DNA of 64,000 nucleotides, taken from the NCBI GenBank assembly GCA_016866775.1, contig VGLJ01000020.1:1-64000 (forward strand). The letters run 5' to 3'. A model generated the notes under the pieces. The model made no database searches. It saw only the letters and a list, made by a program, of their open reading frames with translations, and was not told where the DNA came from. Shown here piece by piece: positions 6,472 through 59,111 of the stretch. Source of the stretch: Candidatus Rokuibacteriota bacterium. GTDB lineage: Bacteria; Methylomirabilota; Methylomirabilia; Rokubacteriales; CSP1-6. Made by a program: the position numbers and the translations under genes. Numbering within the stretch: position 1 is the first letter of the stretch; each line of letters starts with the position of its first letter.

Positions 6472-7675
6472 CGCCGTCCCTCTTGCCGTCGGCGGGCTTC
6501 TTGCCGAGCCCGCGGATGAAGCTGCGGAGCAGGAAGCTGCGCGACGCCCCGTCGAGGATGTTCGACAGCCGCTCGTAGAGCGTCGGATCGGCGATCAGCG
6601 CGCCGAGCGTGCCCTCGCCCTCGTTGATCTTGTCGGTGATCGCGCGGAGGTTCGCGAGCGTCGCCTGCAGGTCGCGCGACGCGCTGGCGATGCTCGCGTC
6701 CGCGGGCTCGTCCTTGAGGAGCCCGCCGAGCGTCCCCTTCCCGCCGGCGACACGATCGGAGACGTCGCGGAAGTTGCGCGTGACCCGCTGCAGATCCTCC
6801 AGGACCGACTTGTACTTCGGGTCGAAGAGCAGCGCCGTGAGCAGCCCTTCGTCGCCGGCGGGACGGTCGGCGATCGCGCCGAACCGTTCCATCGCGGCGA
6901 CCAGCTTCCTCGCCGCCTGCGTCGACTGATCGGACGTCAGCACGCCGGCGGCGCCTTCGCCGCGCTCGATGCGCGCGAGGATCGCCTGCGTGCTGGTGAT
7001 GAGGTCGTTCACCCGCCGGAGCGCGATCGGCTCCTCGTAGAGCAGCGTGTGCGCGAGGCCCGGGCCCTTCTCCACGCGATCCGCGATGCGGCTCACCTGG
7101 TCCGCGGCCTTGCGCGCGGTCTTCACCGTCTCGCCCAGGTCCTGCAGCACGCGCGTCGCCCGGAACTCCTGCGCGATCGTGTTGAAGCTCTCCGCGAGCG
7201 CGGCCACGCTGCGGACGACGCCCGCGCCTTCGCCGATGACGTGCGCGAGGTCGACGGGATCGCGAGACTTCAGGATTTCGCCGGGCTGCACGGCCGCCGC
7301 CTGCGCGCCCCCCACGGTGATCTCGACGATGCGATCGCCGAGCAACCCCTGGGTCTGGATCCGTGCCTCGGAGTCCTTGCGGATGCGATCCGCGAATTGC
7401 GTCGCGATCTTCATCTCGACGCGCACCTTGCCGCCGGGCTGCGGCGGCAGCTCGACCGCGCTCACACGGCCGATCTGCGCCCCCGCGAGCCGCACCGTGG
7501 CGCCCTCCTGCAGGCCGCCGACTTCCGTGAACTCGGCGTAGATCGAGTAGCGCGCCTCGAAGAGCCGGGCGCGCGCGCCGAGCATGTAGATGATGCCGAG
7601 GAAGACCACGAGGCCCACGAGGACGAAGATCCCCACGCGCACCTTCGTGGCCCGCTCGCGTTGCCGCTCGTTCAT
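6455..7675 (-). CDS. mlaD: MlaD/MCE-family lipid-transport binding protein
   Basis: Component of an inner-membrane ABC system that moves phospholipids between the membranes. The 406-residue protein has one N-terminal membrane anchor (VRVGIFVLVGLVVFLGIIYM, residues 12-31). An MCE domain follows (ARYSIYAEFTEVGGLQEG, VRLAGAQIGRVSAVEL, IQTQGLLGDRIVEIT). A long C-terminal helical region contains repeated turns of the type EGEGTLGALIADPTLYERL, which in MCE proteins can form a hexameric channel needle. It overlaps mlaF as ATGA. The C-terminus is Lys/Arg/Gly-rich. The lipid carried is inferred from the family. Confidence 0.92.
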   Translation of the reverse strand: MNERQRERATKVRVGIFVLVGLVVFLGIIYMLGARARLFEARYSIYAEFTEVGGLQEGATVRLAGAQIGRVSAVELPPQPGGKVRVEMKIATQFADRIRKDSEARIQTQGLLGDRIVEITVGGAQAAAVQPGEILKSRDPVDLAHVIGEGAGVVRSVAALAESFNTIAQEFRATRVLQDLGETVKTARKAADQVSRIADRVEKGPGLAHTLLYEEPIALRRVNDLITSTQAILARIERGEGAAGVLTSDQSTQAARKLVAAMERFGAIADRPAGDEGLLTALLFDPKYKSVLEDLQRVTRNFRDVSDRVAGGKGTLGGLLKDEPADASIASASRDLQATLANLRAITDKINEGEGTLGALIADPTLYERLSNILDGASRSFLLRSFIRGLGKKPADGKRDGGEAGR

Positions 7676-8412
7676 CGTGCCTCTCCGGACAGGAATGCTT
7701 GCACCGCCGGATCCCGGCTGCCCAGCACGTCGTCGAGGCGGCCGATGGTCGCGAACCGGCCCTCGATCAGCACGGCGACGCGGTCGGCGACGGTCTTCGC
7801 CAGCTCGAGATCGTGGGTGACCACGATCGCCGTGTCGCAGACCTCACTGCCCAGCTCGGAGATCAGCTCGCCGACCAGCTTCGAGTTCGTCGGATCGAGC
7901 CCGGCCGTCGGCTCGTCGAACAGCAGCACGTCCGGCTGACCGATGAGCGCGCGGGCGATCCCGACGCGCTTGCGCATCCCGCCCGAGAGCTCGGCCGGGA
8001 GCTGGGGCAGCACCTTCTCGTCGAGGCCGACCAGCGAGAGGAAGTGGATGACCCGCTCGTGGATCTCGCGCGCCGACAGATCGGTGTGCTCGCGCAGCGG
8101 GAACGCGACGTTCTCCTCCACGGTGAGCGAGTCGAACAGCGCCGCGCCCTGGAAGACGTAGCCGAGGCGGCGCCGGACCGGCAGCATCGCCTCCTCGGAG
8201 AGGCGCTCGATGTGCTGGTCGAAGAGCATGACCGCGCCGCCGTCGGGCCGGAGGAGGCCGTCGATGATGCGCAGCAGGACCGTCTTGCCCGATCCACTGC
8301 CTCCCATCACGACGAGGGTCTCGCCCTTGTCGAGCCGAAAGCTGACGCCCTTCAGCACGGCGAGCGTCTCGAAGCTCTTGCGGACGTCCTTCGCCTCGAC
8401 GAGGACCGTCAT
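7672..8412 (-). CDS. mlaF: ABC transporter ATPase MlaF
   Basis: Nucleotide-binding subunit that powers the Mla-type lipid transporter. All ABC motifs are visible in 246 residues: Walker A GGSGSGKTVLL (about 36-46), Q-loop GYVFQGAALF, signature LSGGMRKRVGIARA (about 145-158), Walker B DVLLFDEPTAGLDP and the switch His in VVTHDLE. The GGMRKR signature is characteristic of the MlaF/Ttg2A subfamily. It overlaps mlaE upstream and mlaD downstream by 4 nt each, which indicates coupled synthesis of the complex. Confidence 0.95.
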   Translation of the reverse strand: MTVLVEAKDVRKSFETLAVLKGVSFRLDKGETLVVMGGSGSGKTVLLRIIDGLLRPDGGAVMLFDQHIERLSEEAMLPVRRRLGYVFQGAALFDSLTVEENVAFPLREHTDLSAREIHERVIHFLSLVGLDEKVLPQLPAELSGGMRKRVGIARALIGQPDVLLFDEPTAGLDPTNSKLVGELISELGSEVCDTAIVVTHDLELAKTVADRVAVLIEGRFATIGRLDDVLGSRDPAVQAFLSGEAR

Positions 8413-47990: not shown

Positions 47991-48587
47991 TCAGGCACCC
48001 GGGGCGCAGCGCTGGAGCTCGCGCACGATCTCGTCGTTCCCCGGGATCCCGCGCCCGGCGCCCGCGGGCTCGACGTACGAGCCCGCGAGCGCGTAGCGCA
48101 CGACGCCACCGCGGTCGACGATGAAGAAGCCCATGGCGTCGTCCGCGAGGAGCTTCGGCATCTCGGCGAACGATGGCTTCACCGGTCCATAGTCGCTGGC
48201 GGGCTTCGCGCCGGTGAGCCCCTTCACGAGCTGGGCGGCGTACCACGGGAGCGAGTGCGCGCGCACCTCGAGCCCCCACGCCGCGCGCGCCGCGCGGTCC
48301 GCGTCGCACAGGTACGGGAACGGCAGGCGGAACTGGCGCGCGTAGAGCTGTGCCCTGTCGAGTGGCGTCGTGGTGACGTAGAGGACTTCGGCGTCGAGCC
48401 CGTGGATGCGGTCGGCCGCGCGCGCGATCTGCGAGAGCTTCTGGCGGCAGAACGGACACGCCATGCCCTTGGAGAACCACAGCACCACGGCCTTCCGCCC
48501 CTTGAACTCCTCGAGGCGGACGTCGCCGCCCTGGGCCGACGGCAGCCGCAGCGGGCGTGCCGGCTCTCCGACCGTGGGGACGGACAC
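47991..48587 (-). CDS. Peroxiredoxin (AhpC/TSA-like)
   Basis: Thiol peroxidase-type protein of 198 residues. The fold starts VGEPARPLRLPSAQGGDVRL; the active site is WFSKGMACPFCRQKL, a CPFC motif in the position of the peroxidatic Cys, preceded by PLD.AQLYARQF-type strands. GTG 48587 has GGAGGG 4 nt upstream. Owing to a frameshift in the upstream cyclase gene this reading frame is open back into the cyclase, but the separate start site argues that it was an independent gene. Confidence 0.85.
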   Translation of the reverse strand: MSVPTVGEPARPLRLPSAQGGDVRLEEFKGRKAVVLWFSKGMACPFCRQKLSQIARAADRIHGLDAEVLYVTTTPLDRAQLYARQFRLPFPYLCDADRAARAAWGLEVRAHSLPWYAAQLVKGLTGAKPASDYGPVKPSFAEMPKLLADDAMGFFIVDRGGVVRYALAGSYVEPAGAGRGIPGNDEIVRELQRCAPGA

Positions 48588-48601
48588 GGAACCCTCCGGG
48601 C

Positions 48602-51488
48602 TCAACAGAGAAACGGGAGGACGAGGAACGTGTCGCTGCTCCAGCCGGTCATCTCCTGCACCTCGCGGCTGCGCGTGAGCCACGCTTCGGCCTCCGCGTC
48701 GTCGCCGCGCTCGATCGCGAGCGTCGCGAGGACCTTCGTAGCACGGGAACAGGAGCTGCGGCTCTCCGACCGACTCCGCGACCTCGAGCGCGCGCCGGTA
48801 GTACCTCGCACTCGGCTCGTCGTCGCCGCGGCATTGATAGACCTGCGCGAGGATGATCAGCGGGATCGGCAGGTGGTTGCGCTGGCCGAGCCGCTCGTCG
48901 ATCTCCACCGCGGCTTCGGCCGCCCGCACGCCTTCGTCGTAGTCGCCGGCGAGCGTACAGTGGCCGCCCGCCAGCGTGCAGTAGAGCCATGACTGCTGGA
49001 GCTGGTCGCCGATCTTGCGCGCGAGCGCCAGCCCCTCACGGCAGTAGTCGAGCGAGCGCCCGTGATCGATCGTGGCGTACATCACCGCGAGGTTCGTGTA
49101 GGCGCGGCAGGCCACGACGCCGAGCTGGTGCGCGACGGCGACCTCGAGGCCCTGCGCGACGAAGCGCGCGCCCTCGTCGATGTCGCCCGCGCGCGCCAGC
49201 GCCACGCCCGACGTGTTGTACGCGTTCGCCACGACGTCCGGCGCGCCGAGCGCCTCGCCGAGCGCGAGCGCGCGCTTCGCCCAGCCGCTCGCGGTGACGT
49301 GGTCGCCGCGACGGAAGTGGATGCGGCCGAGCTCCTGAGAGAGACGCGCGGCCTCGATGTTGGCGGTGTCGTCGCCGAGCGCCGCGAGCCCGCGCTCGAG
49401 ATGCGCGAGCGCCTGCTCCGGCTCGCCCGCGTCCCCGCACCCGACGCCGAGGCGCCGGTGCAGATCCGCCGTGCGCCGGCCCTCGCGCGCGACGTCGGTG
49501 ACGTCCAGCGCCGCGGCCCATTGCGCGCGGACGTCGGCGAGCGCGCCACGCGCGTACGCCGCGTCGCCGCGCTTGCCGAGCACCCGGGCGCGCGTGACCG
49601 CGTCGCCGGCCGCGACGAGCTCGAGCACGCGGCCGTAGAACGCGCCCGCCTCCTCGTACGCGACCTGGCGCACGAGCAGGTGGGCGAAGTGGAGCCGCAC
49701 GTCGGGGAAGACGTCCTTCTCGCGCAGCAGCTCCTCGCGGATCAGCTCGGCGACGTCGCCCTTCACGTCCGTGCCGGGCGGCGCGAGGCGCTCCAGCACG
49801 GCGAGCGGAAAGTCGCGCCCGGGCACCGCGCCGAGCTGGAGCGTGCGCTTGAGGGGCTCGGGCAGCCGGTCGATGCGCGCGGTGAGGAGATCGTGCACGG
49901 TGGCGGGGCCGCGCGCGTCGCGCGCGCCCGAGCCCTCGTGCAGCTCGTGCTCGCGCAGGTAGCGCGTGAGCTCCTCGATGAAGAACGGATTGCCTTCGGC
50001 CCGGCTCACGACGAGCTCGCGCACCGCGGGTGAAAGCTCGCGGACGCCGAGGACCCGCTTCACCATCTCCGCGGTCTCGTCCTCGGAGAGCGGCCCCAGC
50101 ATGACGCGCTCGTGGCGCGGACGGTCCTGCCATGGAAACGCGTAGCCCGGCCGCGCGGTGAAGACGAGCACGATCGGATGGCCCGCGACGGCCTCGACCA
50201 GCGCGCGGCAGTACTCCTCCGAGTTGCGATCGATCCACTGGAGATCTTCCGCGACCAGGACGAGCGGACGCTCCCGCGCGCCGCGCAGCGTGAGCGCGGT
50301 CACGGCGTCGATGAGACGCCGCTTGCGCTGCACCGGATCGAGGCCTTCGCTCTCGAGCTCGTCGGCGGGAAGCCCGAGCACGTGGCGCAGGTACGGCACC
50401 GTCCACATGAGCTCGGGGTCGAGGCTCGCGACACCCTGCGCGACCTTGTCCGCCTGTGCGGTCGCGCCTTCGCCGTCCTCCAGCCCGAAGACCGCCTGGA
50501 GGAACTGCGCCACGAGGTGGAACGGCTGCGTCGTCCCGTGCGGCAGGCAATGCCCTTCGAGACAGAGGACCGGCTCGTTCGCGAGCACGCGACGCAGCTC
50601 GTAGAGCAGGCGCGACTTGCCCACGCCGGCCTCGCCGACGATCGAGATCGCCTGCCCGCCCGTGGTCCGGCAGCGCGCGACGCTCCCCATCAGACGCGCG
50701 ATCTCGCCCGTGCGGTCGACGAGCGGTGTGAGTCCGCGCTCCACGGCGAGCTCGAAGCGCGCGCGCCGGCGCCGCTGCTCGGTGACGAGGAACGCGCGCA
50801 CCGGCCGGTCGATCCCCTTCACCTGATGGCTGCCCGCGTCGGTCGTGACGAAGTAGCCGCCGACGAGCGCCAGCGTCGCCTCGCTGATCAGCACCGCCCC
50901 GGCATCGGCGACGCCCTGCAGCCGCGCCGCGAGGTTCACCGTCTCGCCCTGCGCCGTGTAGTCCATGCGGAGGTCGTCGCCGATGCGTCCGACGACGACG
51001 GGTCCGGTGTTGAGGCCGACGCGCAGCGCGAACGCGAGCCCGCGCGTCTCCCGGAGCGTCTCCGCGTACTCGCGGATCGACTTCTGGATCGCGAGCGCCG
51101 CCGCCACCGCGCGCACGCCGTGGTCTCCGTGCGCGATCGGCGCGCCGAAGAGCGCCATCACGCCGTCGCCGGTGAACTGGTTGACGGTGCCTTCGTAGTG
51201 GTGGACGGCGGCGGTGACGCGCGCGAAGCAGCCGTCCATGACCGCGTGGAGGTCTTCGGGATCGAGCTTCGCGGCCATCGCGGTGAAGTCGACGCAGTCC
51301 GCGAAGAGCACGGTGACCTGCTTGCGCTCGCCCTCGAGCGCCGCGCGCGAGTGGAGGATCTTGTCGGCGAGATGCTTCGGCGTGTACGCCGCCGCCTCGG
51401 GCCTCACGGGTCCCGCGAGGGGGCGTCCGCACTCGTCACAGAACTTCGCGCCCGAGCGATTTTGCGTGCTGCACGCCGGGCAGATCAC
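48602..51488 (-). CDS. Class III adenylate cyclase / AAA ATPase / TPR protein, frameshifted near its end
   Basis: Large multidomain signalling protein (about 961 residues if the frame is repaired). An N-terminal zinc ribbon (CPACSTQNRSGAKFCDECG) precedes a class III cyclase domain (VTVLFADCVDFTAMAAKLDP with the metal Asp, QFTGDGVMALFGAP, RVGLNTGPVVVG, DYTAQGETVNLAARLQ). An AAA-type ATPase with Walker A VGEAGVGKSRLLYEL and a long TPR region follow. At 48731-48734 one extra base moves the frame after FPCYEG. The natural end, LATLAIERGDDAEAEAWLTR to FLVLPFLC, is in the next frame and stops at 48602. GTG start at 51488. Confidence 0.88.
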
Positions 51489-54937: not shown

Positions 54938-55603
54938 CTAGAACTTACCGAACTTCTGGTAGGCCTCCAGCGGGGGCATGCCGCGCTTGACCGCGGTGCG
55001 GACCTTGTGCTCCGCGCCCAACACTTTCTCGCAGCGGCTGAGGACTTCGTGCGCGACGCGCCGCGGCACGACGACCACGCCGTCGAGATCCGCCACGACG
55101 ATGTCGCCGAGGCTCACGCGCACGCCGCCGATCGTCACGGGCTGGCCCCAGTCGCTCACGCGCCAGCGGGGCACGGAGTCCTGCGGCGTCCGGTAGCGGA
55201 CGAAGACCGGAAAGCCCGCGCGCGCGATGGAGGCGGCGTCCCGCGTCGCGCCGTCGATCACCGCGCCACGAACCTTCCGCCGGCGCAGCGCCTCCATCGA
55301 GAGCGCGCCGAAGTGCGCCGAGGTGTTGTCGTTGGTCGCGAGCACGAGCACCGAGTCCGACGGCACCGCGCCGAGCATCCCGAGGAAGCGCCGCAGCGTC
55401 GCGTCGTGCTCGCGCGGGTGGCCGCGATGCGGACGTCCGCGGGCGGTGAACGCGTAGCCGGCGGCGCGCATGCCCGGCGTCAGCGGCTGGAGCGTCGACG
55501 GCAGCGTCTGCCGCGAGAGGCCCATCTGGTCCATCACGTCGGTGATCGCGGCGGTGTAGATGCGGCTGAAGCGGCGGGGAAGCGCGTCGGTCCGGGAGGC
55601 CAT
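54938..55603 (-). CDS. RraA-like / 4-hydroxy-4-methyl-2-oxoglutarate aldolase-type protein
   Basis: 221 residues of the RraA fold. The pyruvate-aldolase signature is present: a Gly-rich turn GALSMEALRRRKVRGAVIDG, then the metal-proximal GATRDAASI (RD pair). TAAITDVMDQMGL at the N-terminus is also typical. Such proteins are either metal-dependent aldolases/decarboxylases or RNase E regulators; the RD motif favours the enzyme. It follows the polyketide cluster with 11 nt spacing, so it may act on a product of it. Confidence 0.83.
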   Translation of the reverse strand: MASRTDALPRRFSRIYTAAITDVMDQMGLSRQTLPSTLQPLTPGMRAAGYAFTARGRPHRGHPREHDATLRRFLGMLGAVPSDSVLVLATNDNTSAHFGALSMEALRRRKVRGAVIDGATRDAASIARAGFPVFVRYRTPQDSVPRWRVSDWGQPVTIGGVRVSLGDIVVADLDGVVVVPRRVAHEVLSRCEKVLGAEHKVRTAVKRGMPPLEAYQKFGKF

Positions 55604-55614
55604 CGCCGCCCATT

Positions 55615-56796
55615 CTAGCGGCTCAGCAGCGCGCGGGGCGGCACGAAGTCGCCGATCACGCCGAGGAGCGTGTCGAGCATCGCCGGGCGGCCCGCGAGGA
55701 CGCGCGCGGTGAAGTTCGCGAGCCGCCGATGACGGATCGCGAGCTGCAGCGCGTGGGTCAGCCGCGCCTTGCCCGCGAAGATCGCGCGGCGCGTCCGCTC
55801 GTACGCGGCGAGCGCAGTCACGGAGCAGTCGCCGGCGCGCAGGGCCGTCGCGGCGGTATCCGCCGCCAGCTCGGCGCTTCGCAGCGCGGTGAAGACGCCC
55901 TCGCCCGTGAAGGGATCGTAGAACCCGGCGGCATCGCCGACGAGCAGCACGCCGCCGACGTTCGGCGGCGCGACGCGGTACGCGAGCGGGCCGAGCGCGC
56001 GGATGCGCGCGGTGATGTCGGCGCCGGCCACGCGGCGCGCGACGTGGCGCAGCTGCTTCACCCGCGCCGTGAAGAACGTCTCCGGCCGGTCGCTGAAGCG
56101 CGCGGCGTCGGCGAGCGGCACCACGAGGCTCATGTTGACGCGTCCGGGCGTGACGGGGTTGAGGATCACGTAGTCGGGCGGGTCGACGAAGATCTCGCCG
56201 ACGTCGGCGACGTCGCGGAGGCCCCCGAGGTACGTCACCAGCGCCATGCGCTGGAGCCGATGCGCGCGGCGCAAGCCGAGCTTCTGCGCGACCACCGACG
56301 CACGCCCGTCGGCGGCGACGACGAGCCGTGCGGTGAACCGCCGCGTCGTCCCGTCGGCGCCGACGGCGTCGACGCCCGTCACGCGGCCGTCCTCGACGAC
56401 GACGTCCGTCACGCGCACGCGTTCCCTGAAGTCGACCGGCGCGAGGCGCAGCCGGTCCGCCAGCGTCGCGTCGAAGGTCTCGCGCGGGAGCGCGAGCGCG
56501 TGGTCGCGATACGGCCGCCACGGCCCGACGGGCCGATAGCGAGCCTCGATGGTCCTGCCGTCCGGCGCGGTGATGCGCATGCCGGCCAGCGGCACCGCGC
56601 CGGCGGCGTCGAGCGCCTTGAGCACGCCGAGCCTGTCGAGGACCCGCGCGGCTTCCGGGCTCACGTACTCGCCGCAGATCTTGGGACGGGGAAACGCCGC
56701 GCGATCGAGCACGAGCACCTCGAGCCCGCGCTCGGCGAGGAGGATCGCGGTGGCCGCGCCCGCCGGCCCCGCGCCGACGACGAGGACGTCCGTCAT
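55615..56796 (-). CDS. FAD-dependent oxidoreductase (geranylgeranyl reductase/hydroxylase family)
   Basis: 393 residues. The N-terminus VLVVGAGPAGAATAILLAERG binds FAD; DRAAFPRPKICGEYVSPEAA is the PxxKxCG element of the geranylgeranyl-reductase/PHBH-like group; GDAAGFYDPFTGEGVFTAL is the second FAD motif. Might hydroxylate or reduce a polyketide-derived ring. It overlaps the methyltransferase gene (ATGA), giving the order T3PKS-methyltransferase-flavoprotein. Confidence 0.88.
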   Translation of the reverse strand: MTDVLVVGAGPAGAATAILLAERGLEVLVLDRAAFPRPKICGEYVSPEAARVLDRLGVLKALDAAGAVPLAGMRITAPDGRTIEARYRPVGPWRPYRDHALALPRETFDATLADRLRLAPVDFRERVRVTDVVVEDGRVTGVDAVGADGTTRRFTARLVVAADGRASVVAQKLGLRRAHRLQRMALVTYLGGLRDVADVGEIFVDPPDYVILNPVTPGRVNMSLVVPLADAARFSDRPETFFTARVKQLRHVARRVAGADITARIRALGPLAYRVAPPNVGGVLLVGDAAGFYDPFTGEGVFTALRSAELAADTAATALRAGDCSVTALAAYERTRRAIFAGKARLTHALQLAIRHRRLANFTARVLAGRPAMLDTLLGVIGDFVPPRALLSR

Positions 56797-57500
56797 GGCG
56801 CGCAGAGGAGCGTGCGCACGAGCCAGGGCACGCGCCGGATGGTGACACGACCGAGACGGGCCTTCTGCGCGAGCGTCTCGAGCTCGCGCACCGAGTACGA
56901 GCGCCGCACCGACAGCGGGCCGTCGTGCCGCGACGCCGGATGCCGCGCGAAGCAGCGCGTCGTCAGCCACACCGCGAGCCACGCCACGCGGCCGCGCAGG
57001 AGATCGTTGACGACGAGCGCGTCGCGCGCCGCCGCGCGCATCTCAGCGAGCATCGCCGTCGCCCCGTCCGGATCGAGGTGATGCAGCGTCAGCACGCTCA
57101 CGGCGACGTCCACGCTGTCTTCGCGGAAGGGCAGCGCCGTCGCGTCGCCCTGGACGACGGTGATCTCCGGCATGTCCGCGCAGTGACGGCGGGCGAGCGC
57201 CGCCGTCGGCCCGTCGCGGTCGAGGACGAGCACCCGCAGCGAGCGCCGCTCGCGCCGCGCCCACCCCGCGAGGTGCCGCGCGAAGTCGCCGCGCCCGCCG
57301 CCGACGTCGAGCACGAGGATGCGGCGATCGCGCGGCAGCCCCGCGAGCCGTCGCGTCACCTCGCCGAGCGTGAGCCGGTGGCCGCCGAACCACGCGTTGA
57401 GGCGCTCGATGTCCGCGAGCGACGTCGCGAGATCCTCCGGAGGCATCGGGCGATCGAGCCGTTCGAGGCGGTGCGCTTCACGCGGCATGGCCGTCACCAT
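56793..57500 (-). CDS. SAM-dependent methyltransferase (class I)
   Basis: About 235 residues from ATG 57500 (GTG 57497 would give a GTGA overlap with the synthase). SAM-binding motif I ILVLDVGGGRGDFARHLAGW, acidic turn LVLDRDG, motif II VQGDATALPFREDSVDVAV, and SVLTLHHLDPDGA. No membrane helix in the catalytic core; the C-terminal half has a hydrophobic stretch. In related clusters this enzyme O-methylates a phenolic product; inferred. Confidence 0.87.
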   Translation of the reverse strand: MVTAMPREAHRLERLDRPMPPEDLATSLADIERLNAWFGGHRLTLGEVTRRLAGLPRDRRILVLDVGGGRGDFARHLAGWARRERRSLRVLVLDRDGPTAALARRHCADMPEITVVQGDATALPFREDSVDVAVSVLTLHHLDPDGATAMLAEMRAAARDALVVNDLLRGRVAWLAVWLTTRCFARHPASRHDGPLSVRRSYSVRELETLAQKARLGRVTIRRVPWLVRTLLCAP

Positions 57501-58519
57501 CTGAGCAAGGCGCCTTCCGCGGCGAATCCCGGCCCGAGCCCGATGATCACGCCCCACTCGCCGGGAACGGGCGTGGCGGTCCGAAGCGTCTCTTCCAGGA
57601 CGAAGACGATCGTGGCCGACGACATGTTGCCGTAGCGGCGCAGGACCGTGCGCGACGCGGCCGTCTGCTCGGGCGTGAGCTCGAGGAGCTCGGCCGCGCG
57701 GTCGAGGACGCGGCGCCCGGCGGAATGGAGGACCCAGTAGCGGATGTCGTCGCGCTTGAGGCCCTGGTCCGCGAGCAGCGCGGTGGCCATCTCCTCCATC
57801 ATGCCCGCGCCGATCCGGCGGACTTCCTTCGAGAGGACCACGCGCGGCCGGCCGCCCGGATACTCGAAGCCCATCACGGGCAGATGCTCCGGCCGGAAGA
57901 GCGTGCGATGGCCGACGAGGGTCGGGCCGTCACCGCCGCACGACAGCGCGAGCGCGCCGGCGCCGTCCGCGAAGATCGCGTGCGCGACCGCGCTCTCGAG
58001 CCGGTCGTCGAGGAAGTACGCCGTGGAGCAGAGCTCGACCGCGATCACGAGGGCCTTGTGACGCGGAAACGCGCGCAGGTGATTCCAGGCCTGCTGGAGG
58101 GTGACGACCGCGGCGGCACAGCCCGTGTCGCCCACGTGCACGCGCTGGACGGCGCTGCGACAGCCGAGCCGCGCGACGAGGTGGGCGTCGAGGCTCGGCG
58201 TGAGCCGGCCGGTGCACGTCGTGGTCCCGATGAAATCGAGGTCGGCCGGCGTCCACCCCGCGCGCTCGAGCGCGCGCCGCGCGGCCGCCTCCGCGATCTC
58301 GAGCGCGCCCCGGCGGAAGCGCGCCTGCATCTCGTCGACCGACTCGTCCGGGCGGAACGTGGCCGGGTCGAGGTAGAGATAGCGGCCCTCGATCCCGCTC
58401 TTCTCGAAGAATCCGCGCCGGCGCGGGTCGTCGTAGCCGGCGAGCGCGAGCAGCTGATCCTGCGGGAAGAAGTGCGGCGGCGTCGCCGTCGCCACGGCGA
58501 CGATCTTCGGCAGCGGCAT
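57494..58519 (-). CDS. Type III polyketide synthase (chalcone/stilbene synthase family)
   Basis: Homodimeric condensing enzyme using malonyl-CoA extender units. 341 residues. The catalytic triad is complete: Cys in VHVGDTGCAAAVVTLQQ, His in YWVLHSAGRRVLD, Asn in VLRRYGNMSSATIVF. The loop GFEYPGGRPRVVLSKEVRR is typical. ATG 58519 has GGAGGT 4 nt upstream. First gene of the cluster; the starter unit is unknown. Alkylresorcinol or alkylpyrone products are likely for bacterial members linked to a methyltransferase and flavoprotein. Confidence 0.93.
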   Translation of the reverse strand: MPLPKIVAVATATPPHFFPQDQLLALAGYDDPRRRGFFEKSGIEGRYLYLDPATFRPDESVDEMQARFRRGALEIAEAAARRALERAGWTPADLDFIGTTTCTGRLTPSLDAHLVARLGCRSAVQRVHVGDTGCAAAVVTLQQAWNHLRAFPRHKALVIAVELCSTAYFLDDRLESAVAHAIFADGAGALALSCGGDGPTLVGHRTLFRPEHLPVMGFEYPGGRPRVVLSKEVRRIGAGMMEEMATALLADQGLKRDDIRYWVLHSAGRRVLDRAAELLELTPEQTAASRTVLRRYGNMSSATIVFVLEETLRTATPVPGEWGVIIGLGPGFAAEGALLRW

Positions 58520-58586: not shown

Positions 58587-59111
58587 ATGCCACTGTTCAG
58601 CTTCGAGGGAAAGTCACCGCGCATCCATCCGAGCGCGTTCATCGCGCCGACCGCCGTCATCATCGGCGACGTGACGATCGAAGAGAACGCGTCGGTCTGG
58701 TACAACGCCGTCGTCCGCGCCGACTTCGCGCCGATCGTGATCCGCGGGGGCGCGAACGTGCAGGACTGCTCGGTCATCCACGTCACGCCGCGCGGCGGCA
58801 CCGACATCGGCCGCGGCGCGACGGTCGGGCACCTGTGCATCCTGCACCAGGCGCTGATCGGCGACGAGGCGCTCGTGGGCAACGGCGCGACGGTGCTCGA
58901 CGGCGCGAAGATCGGCGCGCGCTCGATGATCGCGGCCGGCGCGCTCGTCACGCCGGGCACCGAGATCCCCGAAGGCGTGCTCGCGATCGGCGCGCCCGCG
59001 AAGGTGAAGGGTCCGCTCGCGGGCACACCGGCCGAGGAGTGGGTCAAGCGCAACCCGACCGGCTACCAGGCGCTCGCCCAGCGCCACAAGGCGGGCGTGC
59101 AGCCGGCCTGA
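58587..59111 (+). CDS. Gamma-class carbonic anhydrase family protein
   Basis: 174 residues, left-handed beta-helix of hexapeptide repeats (IHPSAFIAPTAVIIGDVTIE ...). The three zinc-binding His are in CSVIHVTPRG and VGHLCILHQALIG. The acidic residues of Cam-type active enzymes are not all recognisable, so catalytic activity is uncertain, as in YrdA/PaaY-like proteins. Divergent from the polyketide cluster; convergent with the enoyl-CoA hydratase, stop codons 3 nt apart. Confidence 0.9.
   Translation: MPLFSFEGKSPRIHPSAFIAPTAVIIGDVTIEENASVWYNAVVRADFAPIVIRGGANVQDCSVIHVTPRGGTDIGRGATVGHLCILHQALIGDEALVGNGATVLDGAKIGARSMIAAGALVTPGTEIPEGVLAIGAPAKVKGPLAGTPAEEWVKRNPTGYQALAQRHKAGVQPA

Follow-up and report, generated by a model that had tools for sequence, protein, structure and literature searches.

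The gene cluster and its type III polyketide synthase

The window analysed in this work is a stretch of 64,000 nucleotides (nt) from contig VGLJ01000020.1 of the Candidatus Rokuibacteriota assembly GCA_016866775.1, which belongs to the phylum Methylomirabilota. Its minus strand contains a compact cluster transcribed in the order synthase, methyltransferase, FAD (flavin adenine dinucleotide) protein and RraA-like protein. The first gene (57494-58519) encodes a type III polyketide synthase of 341 amino acids with matches to the Pfam families PF02797, PF00195 and PF08392, and a GGAGG motif lies just 5' of its ATG. The second gene (56793-57497) encodes a class I S-adenosylmethionine methyltransferase related to PRK06202, with a GTG start and an alternative ATG at 57488. 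The third gene (55615-56796) encodes a protein of 393 amino acids that resembles geranylgeranyl (GG) reductases and group A monooxygenases (PF01494, E 2.9e-34). The original prediction stated that the genes of the cluster overlap, and this is true of the synthase, methyltransferase and FAD genes, which share 4 nt at each junction (GTGA at the first and ATGA at the second), but not of the RraA-like gene, whose start lies after a gap of 11 nt from the FAD stop codon. The best Pfam match of each of the four proteins has an E-value of 1e-15 to 3e-34 and, together with a gene order that recurs through the phylum, this places the cluster far beyond chance. A promoter and terminator scan at the cluster gave nothing above shuffled sequence.

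The source genome (5.13 Mb in 159 contigs, 97.5% complete) has one full synthase of this kind. A decayed second copy lies in pieces at about 7540-7860 of the locus L063 (G000:C27:19600-35600) of the same genome; it is 72% identical to the window synthase over residues 50-136, where it carries an in-frame stop, and 95% identical over residues 320-340.

The catalytic triad of the synthase (Cys134, His265 and Asn298) is intact, as had been claimed from the sequence, and is invariant in an alignment of 35 type III synthases. The nearest solved chain to its AlphaFold model (mean predicted local distance difference test score, 89.9) is PKS11, with Z 44.3 and a root-mean-square deviation (rmsd) of 2.0 over 335 aligned residues, followed by chains of the alkylresorcinol synthase CylI (Z 42.4, rmsd 2.0-2.1, 332-335 aligned residues). 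With its Cys-His-Asn triad and thiolase fold, the window protein is a type III polyketide synthase. PKS11 is also its top sequence match in the PDB (147 bits), and it could be argued that the product is an alkylpyrone formed by lactonisation and later methylated, as for enzymes of the PKS11/PKS18 kind, with the FAD protein acting on the chain. We consider this improbable: CylI follows so closely that the structural match does not discriminate, PKS11 falls in another clade, and a partner resembling a ring hydroxylase suits a phenol better.

The phylogeny of the synthase was examined with IQ-TREE in a tree of 49 sequences and then in one of 58, from which six near-duplicate rows had been dropped beforehand; a synthase encoded on a Microbacterium plasmid (L124), matched in two pieces, was left out. 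The Methylomirabilota synthases form one clade in the first tree (support 100/100), and two Acidobacteriota synthases fall inside it in the second. DpgA is the sister of this clade in both trees (99/96 and 100/97, respectively). The approximately unbiased (AU) test rejected a grouping with the synthases found in similar gene triads of planctomycetes, Deinococcus, Psychrobacter and Alphaproteobacteria (p-AU 0.00011), which serve as proxies for HidC, itself outside the tree. A grouping with the tetrahydroxynaphthalene (THN) synthases (RppA), the outcome that the original prediction had regarded as adverse, was rejected as well (p-AU 0.00123; represented by 1u0m and two rows from Streptomyces plasmids), these p values being somewhat optimistic given that the groups were chosen after the first tree was seen. 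The tyrosine of THN synthases aligns with window residue 218, which is Phe in the window synthase. Residues specific to the clade include Arg105, Asp131 (at -3 relative to the catalytic Cys) and Ala267 (at +2 relative to the catalytic His). The Methylomirabilota synthase is a new subfamily, a branch that had not been described before within a known family of enzymes.

DpgA, which shares 32-37% identity with the window synthase, makes 3,5-dihydroxyphenylacetyl-CoA from malonyl-CoA, and its sister position raises an alternative to a lipid product. A DpgA-like synthase would use malonyl-CoA as the starter; its product, a 3,5-dihydroxyphenylacetyl thioester or some other short and polar phenol, would later be modified by the methyltransferase and the FAD protein, and no membrane lipid would be made. 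This seems unlikely to us for several reasons. The DpgA model NF042429 scores the window synthase with 208.9 bits, about half of the cut-off of 425 and thus below equivalog level. The DpgA annotation by NCBIfam was discarded as unspecific, the model matching all 35 type III synthases of the alignment. Using tblastn, no DpgB match was found in the window, and the only hit with DpgC (26%) is to a generic enoyl-CoA hydratase. Residue 217 (window numbering) is Gly in 14/14 rows of the phylum and Arg in 5/5 DpgA-type rows; Gly217 also occurs in PKS11 and in a Metabacillus row, and this difference is a weak pointer on the starter, which these residues do not fix. Finally, the nature of the partner genes and the swap for a HidC-clade synthase described below point to lipid chemistry.

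One Rokubacteria genome carries a second synthase within the DpgA clade (L061, G013:C71, 3300-8600; 37% identity to that of the window). DpgB-like and other genes of the enoyl-CoA hydratase family come after it, together forming a probable dihydroxyphenylglycine-type cluster.

Conservation of the trio in Methylomirabilota

Genome contigs were scanned for relatives; a single protein as the query found none, and an alignment query yielded 79 loci. A synthase match at E 1e-25 was present in 78 of the 95 genomes of the phylum, two of which (G066 and G070) encode a different synthase (30-34% identity), so that the orthologue is found in 76 of 95. Among the high-quality genomes (completeness of 90% or more, contamination of 5% or less), the orthologue is present in 49 of 53 and any match in 51. 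The four without the orthologue are G066, G070, G054 and G076, the last of which gave no match to the synthase, the methyltransferase or the FAD protein at the thresholds used. G054 (L227, G054:C120, 5682-6499) has a 43-residue synthase remnant followed directly by the FAD gene, which reflects either a deletion or an assembly fault.

Gene linkage was counted in the orthologue-bearing genomes other than the window's own (75 in number), considering only loci with room to the contig end. A same-strand methyltransferase gene lies 3' of the synthase gene in all 72 loci with room, the remaining three stopping at the contig end. The FAD gene is found 3' in 67 of 71 loci with room, including 44/44 within the window's own Rokubacteria family (hereafter, the family). 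The neighbourhood comparison across genomes that had been proposed as a check of the cluster thus finds the trio conserved. In locus L071 (G031:C1, 6527-10319), the synthase frame is interrupted near residue 220, and some 2.5 kb of intervening sequence separates it from the methyltransferase gene.

A YceI gene (PF04264) is inserted between the methyltransferase and FAD genes in 13 loci, distributed over the families f5 (3/4), f6 (5/5), f7 (2/3) and f10 (3/14), the last of which includes Ca. Methylomirabilis; none was found at this position in the loci of f1, f2 and f4. Four of the five YceI proteins read carry a lipobox-like motif near the N-terminus.

Because the synthase tree largely tracks the families, apart from an f2 row placed inside f1 and a Bryobacteraceae metagenome-assembled genome (MAG) discussed below, these sequences are in line with a mainly vertical inheritance of the trio. 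The trees of the methyltransferase and the FAD protein have poor support at their deep nodes and are uninformative on transfer between phyla. With slightly better than even confidence, we propose that the trio is an ancestral, largely vertically inherited operon of Methylomirabilota devoted to a phenolic lipid. Type III synthases are usually scattered genes of secondary metabolism; they occur, for instance, in 16.8% of sequenced cyanobacterial genomes (PMC8086630), and a survey of 131 planctomycetal species found the trio in 58 operons (PMC10896814). Here, an orthologue and its two partners are near-universal in a phylum from which hardly any isolates exist, and this argues for a role in basic membrane physiology. 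The lipid would then be a possible biomarker for Rokubacteria and anaerobic methane oxidisers. Among open-licence papers, we found no literature on type III polyketides or phenolic lipids in Methylomirabilis, on type III polyketide synthases (T3PKS) in Methylomirabilota or on alkylresorcinols in Rokubacteria. The available portion of a paper on Rokubacteria polyketides does not mention type III (PMC7298704), and neither the names of the phylum nor the word 'polyketide' occur in PMC13386864.

Partner enzymes, synthase exchange and proposed product

The trio is comparable to srsABC of Streptomyces griseus, which comprises a synthase, a methyltransferase and a flavoprotein; this parallel, already drawn in the original prediction, stands as a likeness of gene kinds and extends no further. 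The same prediction is borne out more closely by the hidABC/hierridin-like operons of cyanobacteria and the alkylresorcinol operons of Planctomycetota, which bring together a methyltransferase, a FAD oxidoreductase and a type III synthase as in the window (PMC10896814, PMC8086630). As in those operons, the three window genes are adjacent and on one strand, and their order matches hidC-hidA-hidB, one of the two known hid gene orders (PMC8086630). The methyltransferase of the planctomycete Paludisphaera is of the same NCBIfam family as that of the window. The differences lie in the synthase, which falls in a separate clade according to the trees and the AU test with HidC proxies, and in the distribution, which is phylum-wide here and scattered in the hidABC-type operons. 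The kind of operon is known, and the synthase subfamily is new. A five-gene operon of 'Saltatorellus ferox' is also comparable but differs, no FAD gene being named for it in the available text, where its synthase is placed among methylmalonyl-using enzymes (PMC10896814).

The best model by far for the window methyltransferase is PRK06202 (NF004851), although its score of 145 bits is below the cut-off of 243, and the protein is a divergent relative of that family; the Deinococcus partner methyltransferase passes the same cut-off with 307.5 bits. Similarly, the FAD protein scores 152.3 bits with TIGR02032 (GG-reductase superfamily), just below the cut-off of 158.8, which suggests kinship without formal membership. 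It keeps the motifs GxGxxG, ADGR and GDAAG..P..GEG. Its top folds are FADH2-dependent halogenases (FasV, Z 44.7; Bmp2, 43.5; ChlB4, 43.4) and its best profile match is also a halogenase (178 bits), so that the end product might be a halogenated phenolic lipid, and hierridin C is indeed a chlorinated hierridin (PMC8086630). However, its best family match is the reductase/monooxygenase model TIGR02032, and the site of WxWxIP, the motif of flavin-dependent halogenases (GWVWMIP in CmlS), reads Y209-x-I211-x-N213-P, with the three residues invariant in a 13-row alignment. In view of this loss, the halogenase function was rejected as highly improbable in spite of the halogenase-like folds, and the FAD protein is probably a ring hydroxylase.

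The same kinds of partners were found beside other synthases. PRK06202 is the best NCBIfam model for 10/10 partner methyltransferases scanned, which accompany four synthase lineages: the window clade, the triads of planctomycetes, Deinococcus, Psychrobacter and Methylobacterium, the Vicinamibacterales-type Acidobacteriota, and the L099 synthase. As the last groups with the planctomycete triads in one large clade of the 58-sequence tree, the four lineages represent at least three clades. A GG-reductase-type FAD partner is present in 4/5 cases scanned, Deinococcus being different. In the Vicinamibacterales-type Acidobacteriota (L200-L204, L208, L210 and L212), the trio is ordered synthase, FAD protein, methyltransferase, with a synthase of another lineage.

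G066 and G070, both of f6, have lost the native synthase and methyltransferase genes and kept the YceI and FAD pair (L226 and L225), the native FAD protein being 67-69% identical. Elsewhere, these genomes encode a HidC-clade synthase (L100 and L099, respectively) with its own PRK06202 methyltransferase. The contig with this synthase carries an rlmN gene that shares 79-81% identity with the full-length rlmN genes of five other f6 genomes, and contamination is therefore counted unlikely. Those five genomes contain only the native synthase, and nothing close to the L099 synthase was found in them. We read this as a putative natural exchange in which the first two enzymes were replaced and the later steps retained. 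Since the native pair was apparently swapped for a HidC-clade pair while the YceI and FAD genes stayed, the exchange is the best hint in these sequences that the two synthase clades yield a core of the same kind or equivalent products. The case is drawn from seven genomes, all of a single genus, and may go back to a single event. The exchange also offers a direct route to ask whether two distant clades make the same core.

The phenolic membrane lipid or quinone-like compound suggested in the original prediction is supported by this gene context, the identity of the product being drawn by analogy. In the pathway that we propose, and hold to be slightly more probable than not, the trio would produce a methylated and hydroxylated alkylresorcinol, perhaps an alkylquinone. 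The synthase would load an acyl-CoA starter, most likely long-chain, and extend it three times with malonyl-CoA, and aldol closure would give a 5-alkylresorcinol. To judge from the hidABC-type partner genes, the PRK06202-family methyltransferase would then add a methyl group either to the ring or to a hydroxyl, after which the FAD protein would hydroxylate the ring, giving a methylated alkyl-hydroquinone oxidisable to a quinone. There are precedents for such steps: synthases of planctomycetal operons expressed in C. glutamicum yield 5-pentadecyl- and 5-heptadecylresorcinols, co-expression of the methyltransferase and oxidoreductase of Gimesia maris adds one methyl group, probably on carbon, and HidA is an O-methyltransferase and hierridin B is 4-hydroxylated (PMC10896814). 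The lipid may serve in membrane structure or as a redox or antioxidant lipid. In the families that encode it, the YceI lipocalin-like protein might bind or transport the lipid at the envelope. The antioxidant idea arises because of the lipocalin BcnA, presumably a YceI-family protein. BcnA is secreted and guards the envelope against lipid peroxyl radicals; no type III synthase is named in the available text of that study, and the link to a phenolic lipid is ours (PMC9113575).

Several observations weigh against this proposal. The window synthase shares only about 25-37% identity with every outside synthase of known product; a short-chain or malonyl starter would be compatible with DpgA as the nearest clade, and alkylpyrones agree just as well with the structural neighbours. 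The FAD gene is missing beside the methyltransferase gene in four f10 genomes with room. The Bryobacteraceae MAG (L190) falls in the wider clade, with 53% identity and the same trio in the same order, and this case implies either a misbinned contig or one or more transfers. Lastly, menaquinone genes (futalosine-pathway PF02621 and UbiA-type PF01040) are present in 11/11 genomes tested; a replacement of menaquinone by the trio product was rejected on these grounds, and the product would therefore be an extra lipid and not the sole quinone. A broader proposal, which we put forward only tentatively and hold to be rather doubtful as a whole, is that Methylomirabilota, from soil Rokubacteria to Ca. 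Methylomirabilis, which oxidises methane with nitrite, would make a methylated alkyl-hydroquinone/quinone as a core membrane lipid not reported before, through a distinct synthase subfamily, with a YceI lipoprotein in several families and a redox-active or antioxidant function beside menaquinone, and that the synthase could be exchanged for a HidC-type enzyme without losing the later steps.

Neighbouring genes

The RraA-like gene (54938-55603, minus strand) encodes a protein of 221 amino acids (PF03737, E 2.5e-29) that is a member of the RraA-like superfamily, with 102.9 bits against a gathering score of 24.5. It falls below the cut-offs of the 4-carboxy-4-hydroxy-2-oxoadipate aldolase models NF006731 (80.7 versus 179 bits) and TIGR02798 (70.6 versus 304.5 bits). 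The original prediction included it in the pathway, and the four genes would then form a single route in which an RraA-type aldolase or decarboxylase acts on a ring-derived oxoacid. Its start close to the FAD stop in the window agrees with this, as does its presence 3' of the FAD gene in 29/44 loci of the family, in 26 of them within 200 nt. Nevertheless, the gene is absent 3' of the FAD gene in 15/44 loci of the family, of which L070 and L065 have only 0.2 and 1.4 kb of room, and was found at 0/28 loci outside the family. In L049, L067 and L055, it lies farther off (0.9, 1.1 and 2.9 kb, respectively), and in L055 it adjoins an M23 peptidase gene. Whole-genome searches covered 19 genomes, chosen mainly for missing the gene at the locus; 15 gave no RraA match at E 1e-20, although the synthase is kept. 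The four with a match are the window's own genome, G033 (7 kb away from the FAD gene and on one contig with it), G092 (on another contig) and G057 (34-37%). Because the linkage is loose and many genomes lack the gene, we dropped it from the pathway; its participation seems very unlikely, and the RraA-like gene is a lineage-specific neighbour and not a core part of the cluster.

On the other side of the cluster, and divergent from the synthase gene, a gene on the plus strand (58587-59111) encodes a hexapeptide-repeat protein resembling gamma-carbonic anhydrases (PF00132). It adjoins the synthase gene in 46/47 loci of the family and was not found in L107; it is a conserved neighbour within the family, outside the pathway.

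Elsewhere in the window, a frame of 1165 amino acids (47991-51488, minus strand) reads as an adenylate-cyclase/ATPase/tetratricopeptide-repeat protein that runs through a low-complexity stretch into a redoxin-like C-terminus, probably the result of a frameshift fusing two genes.

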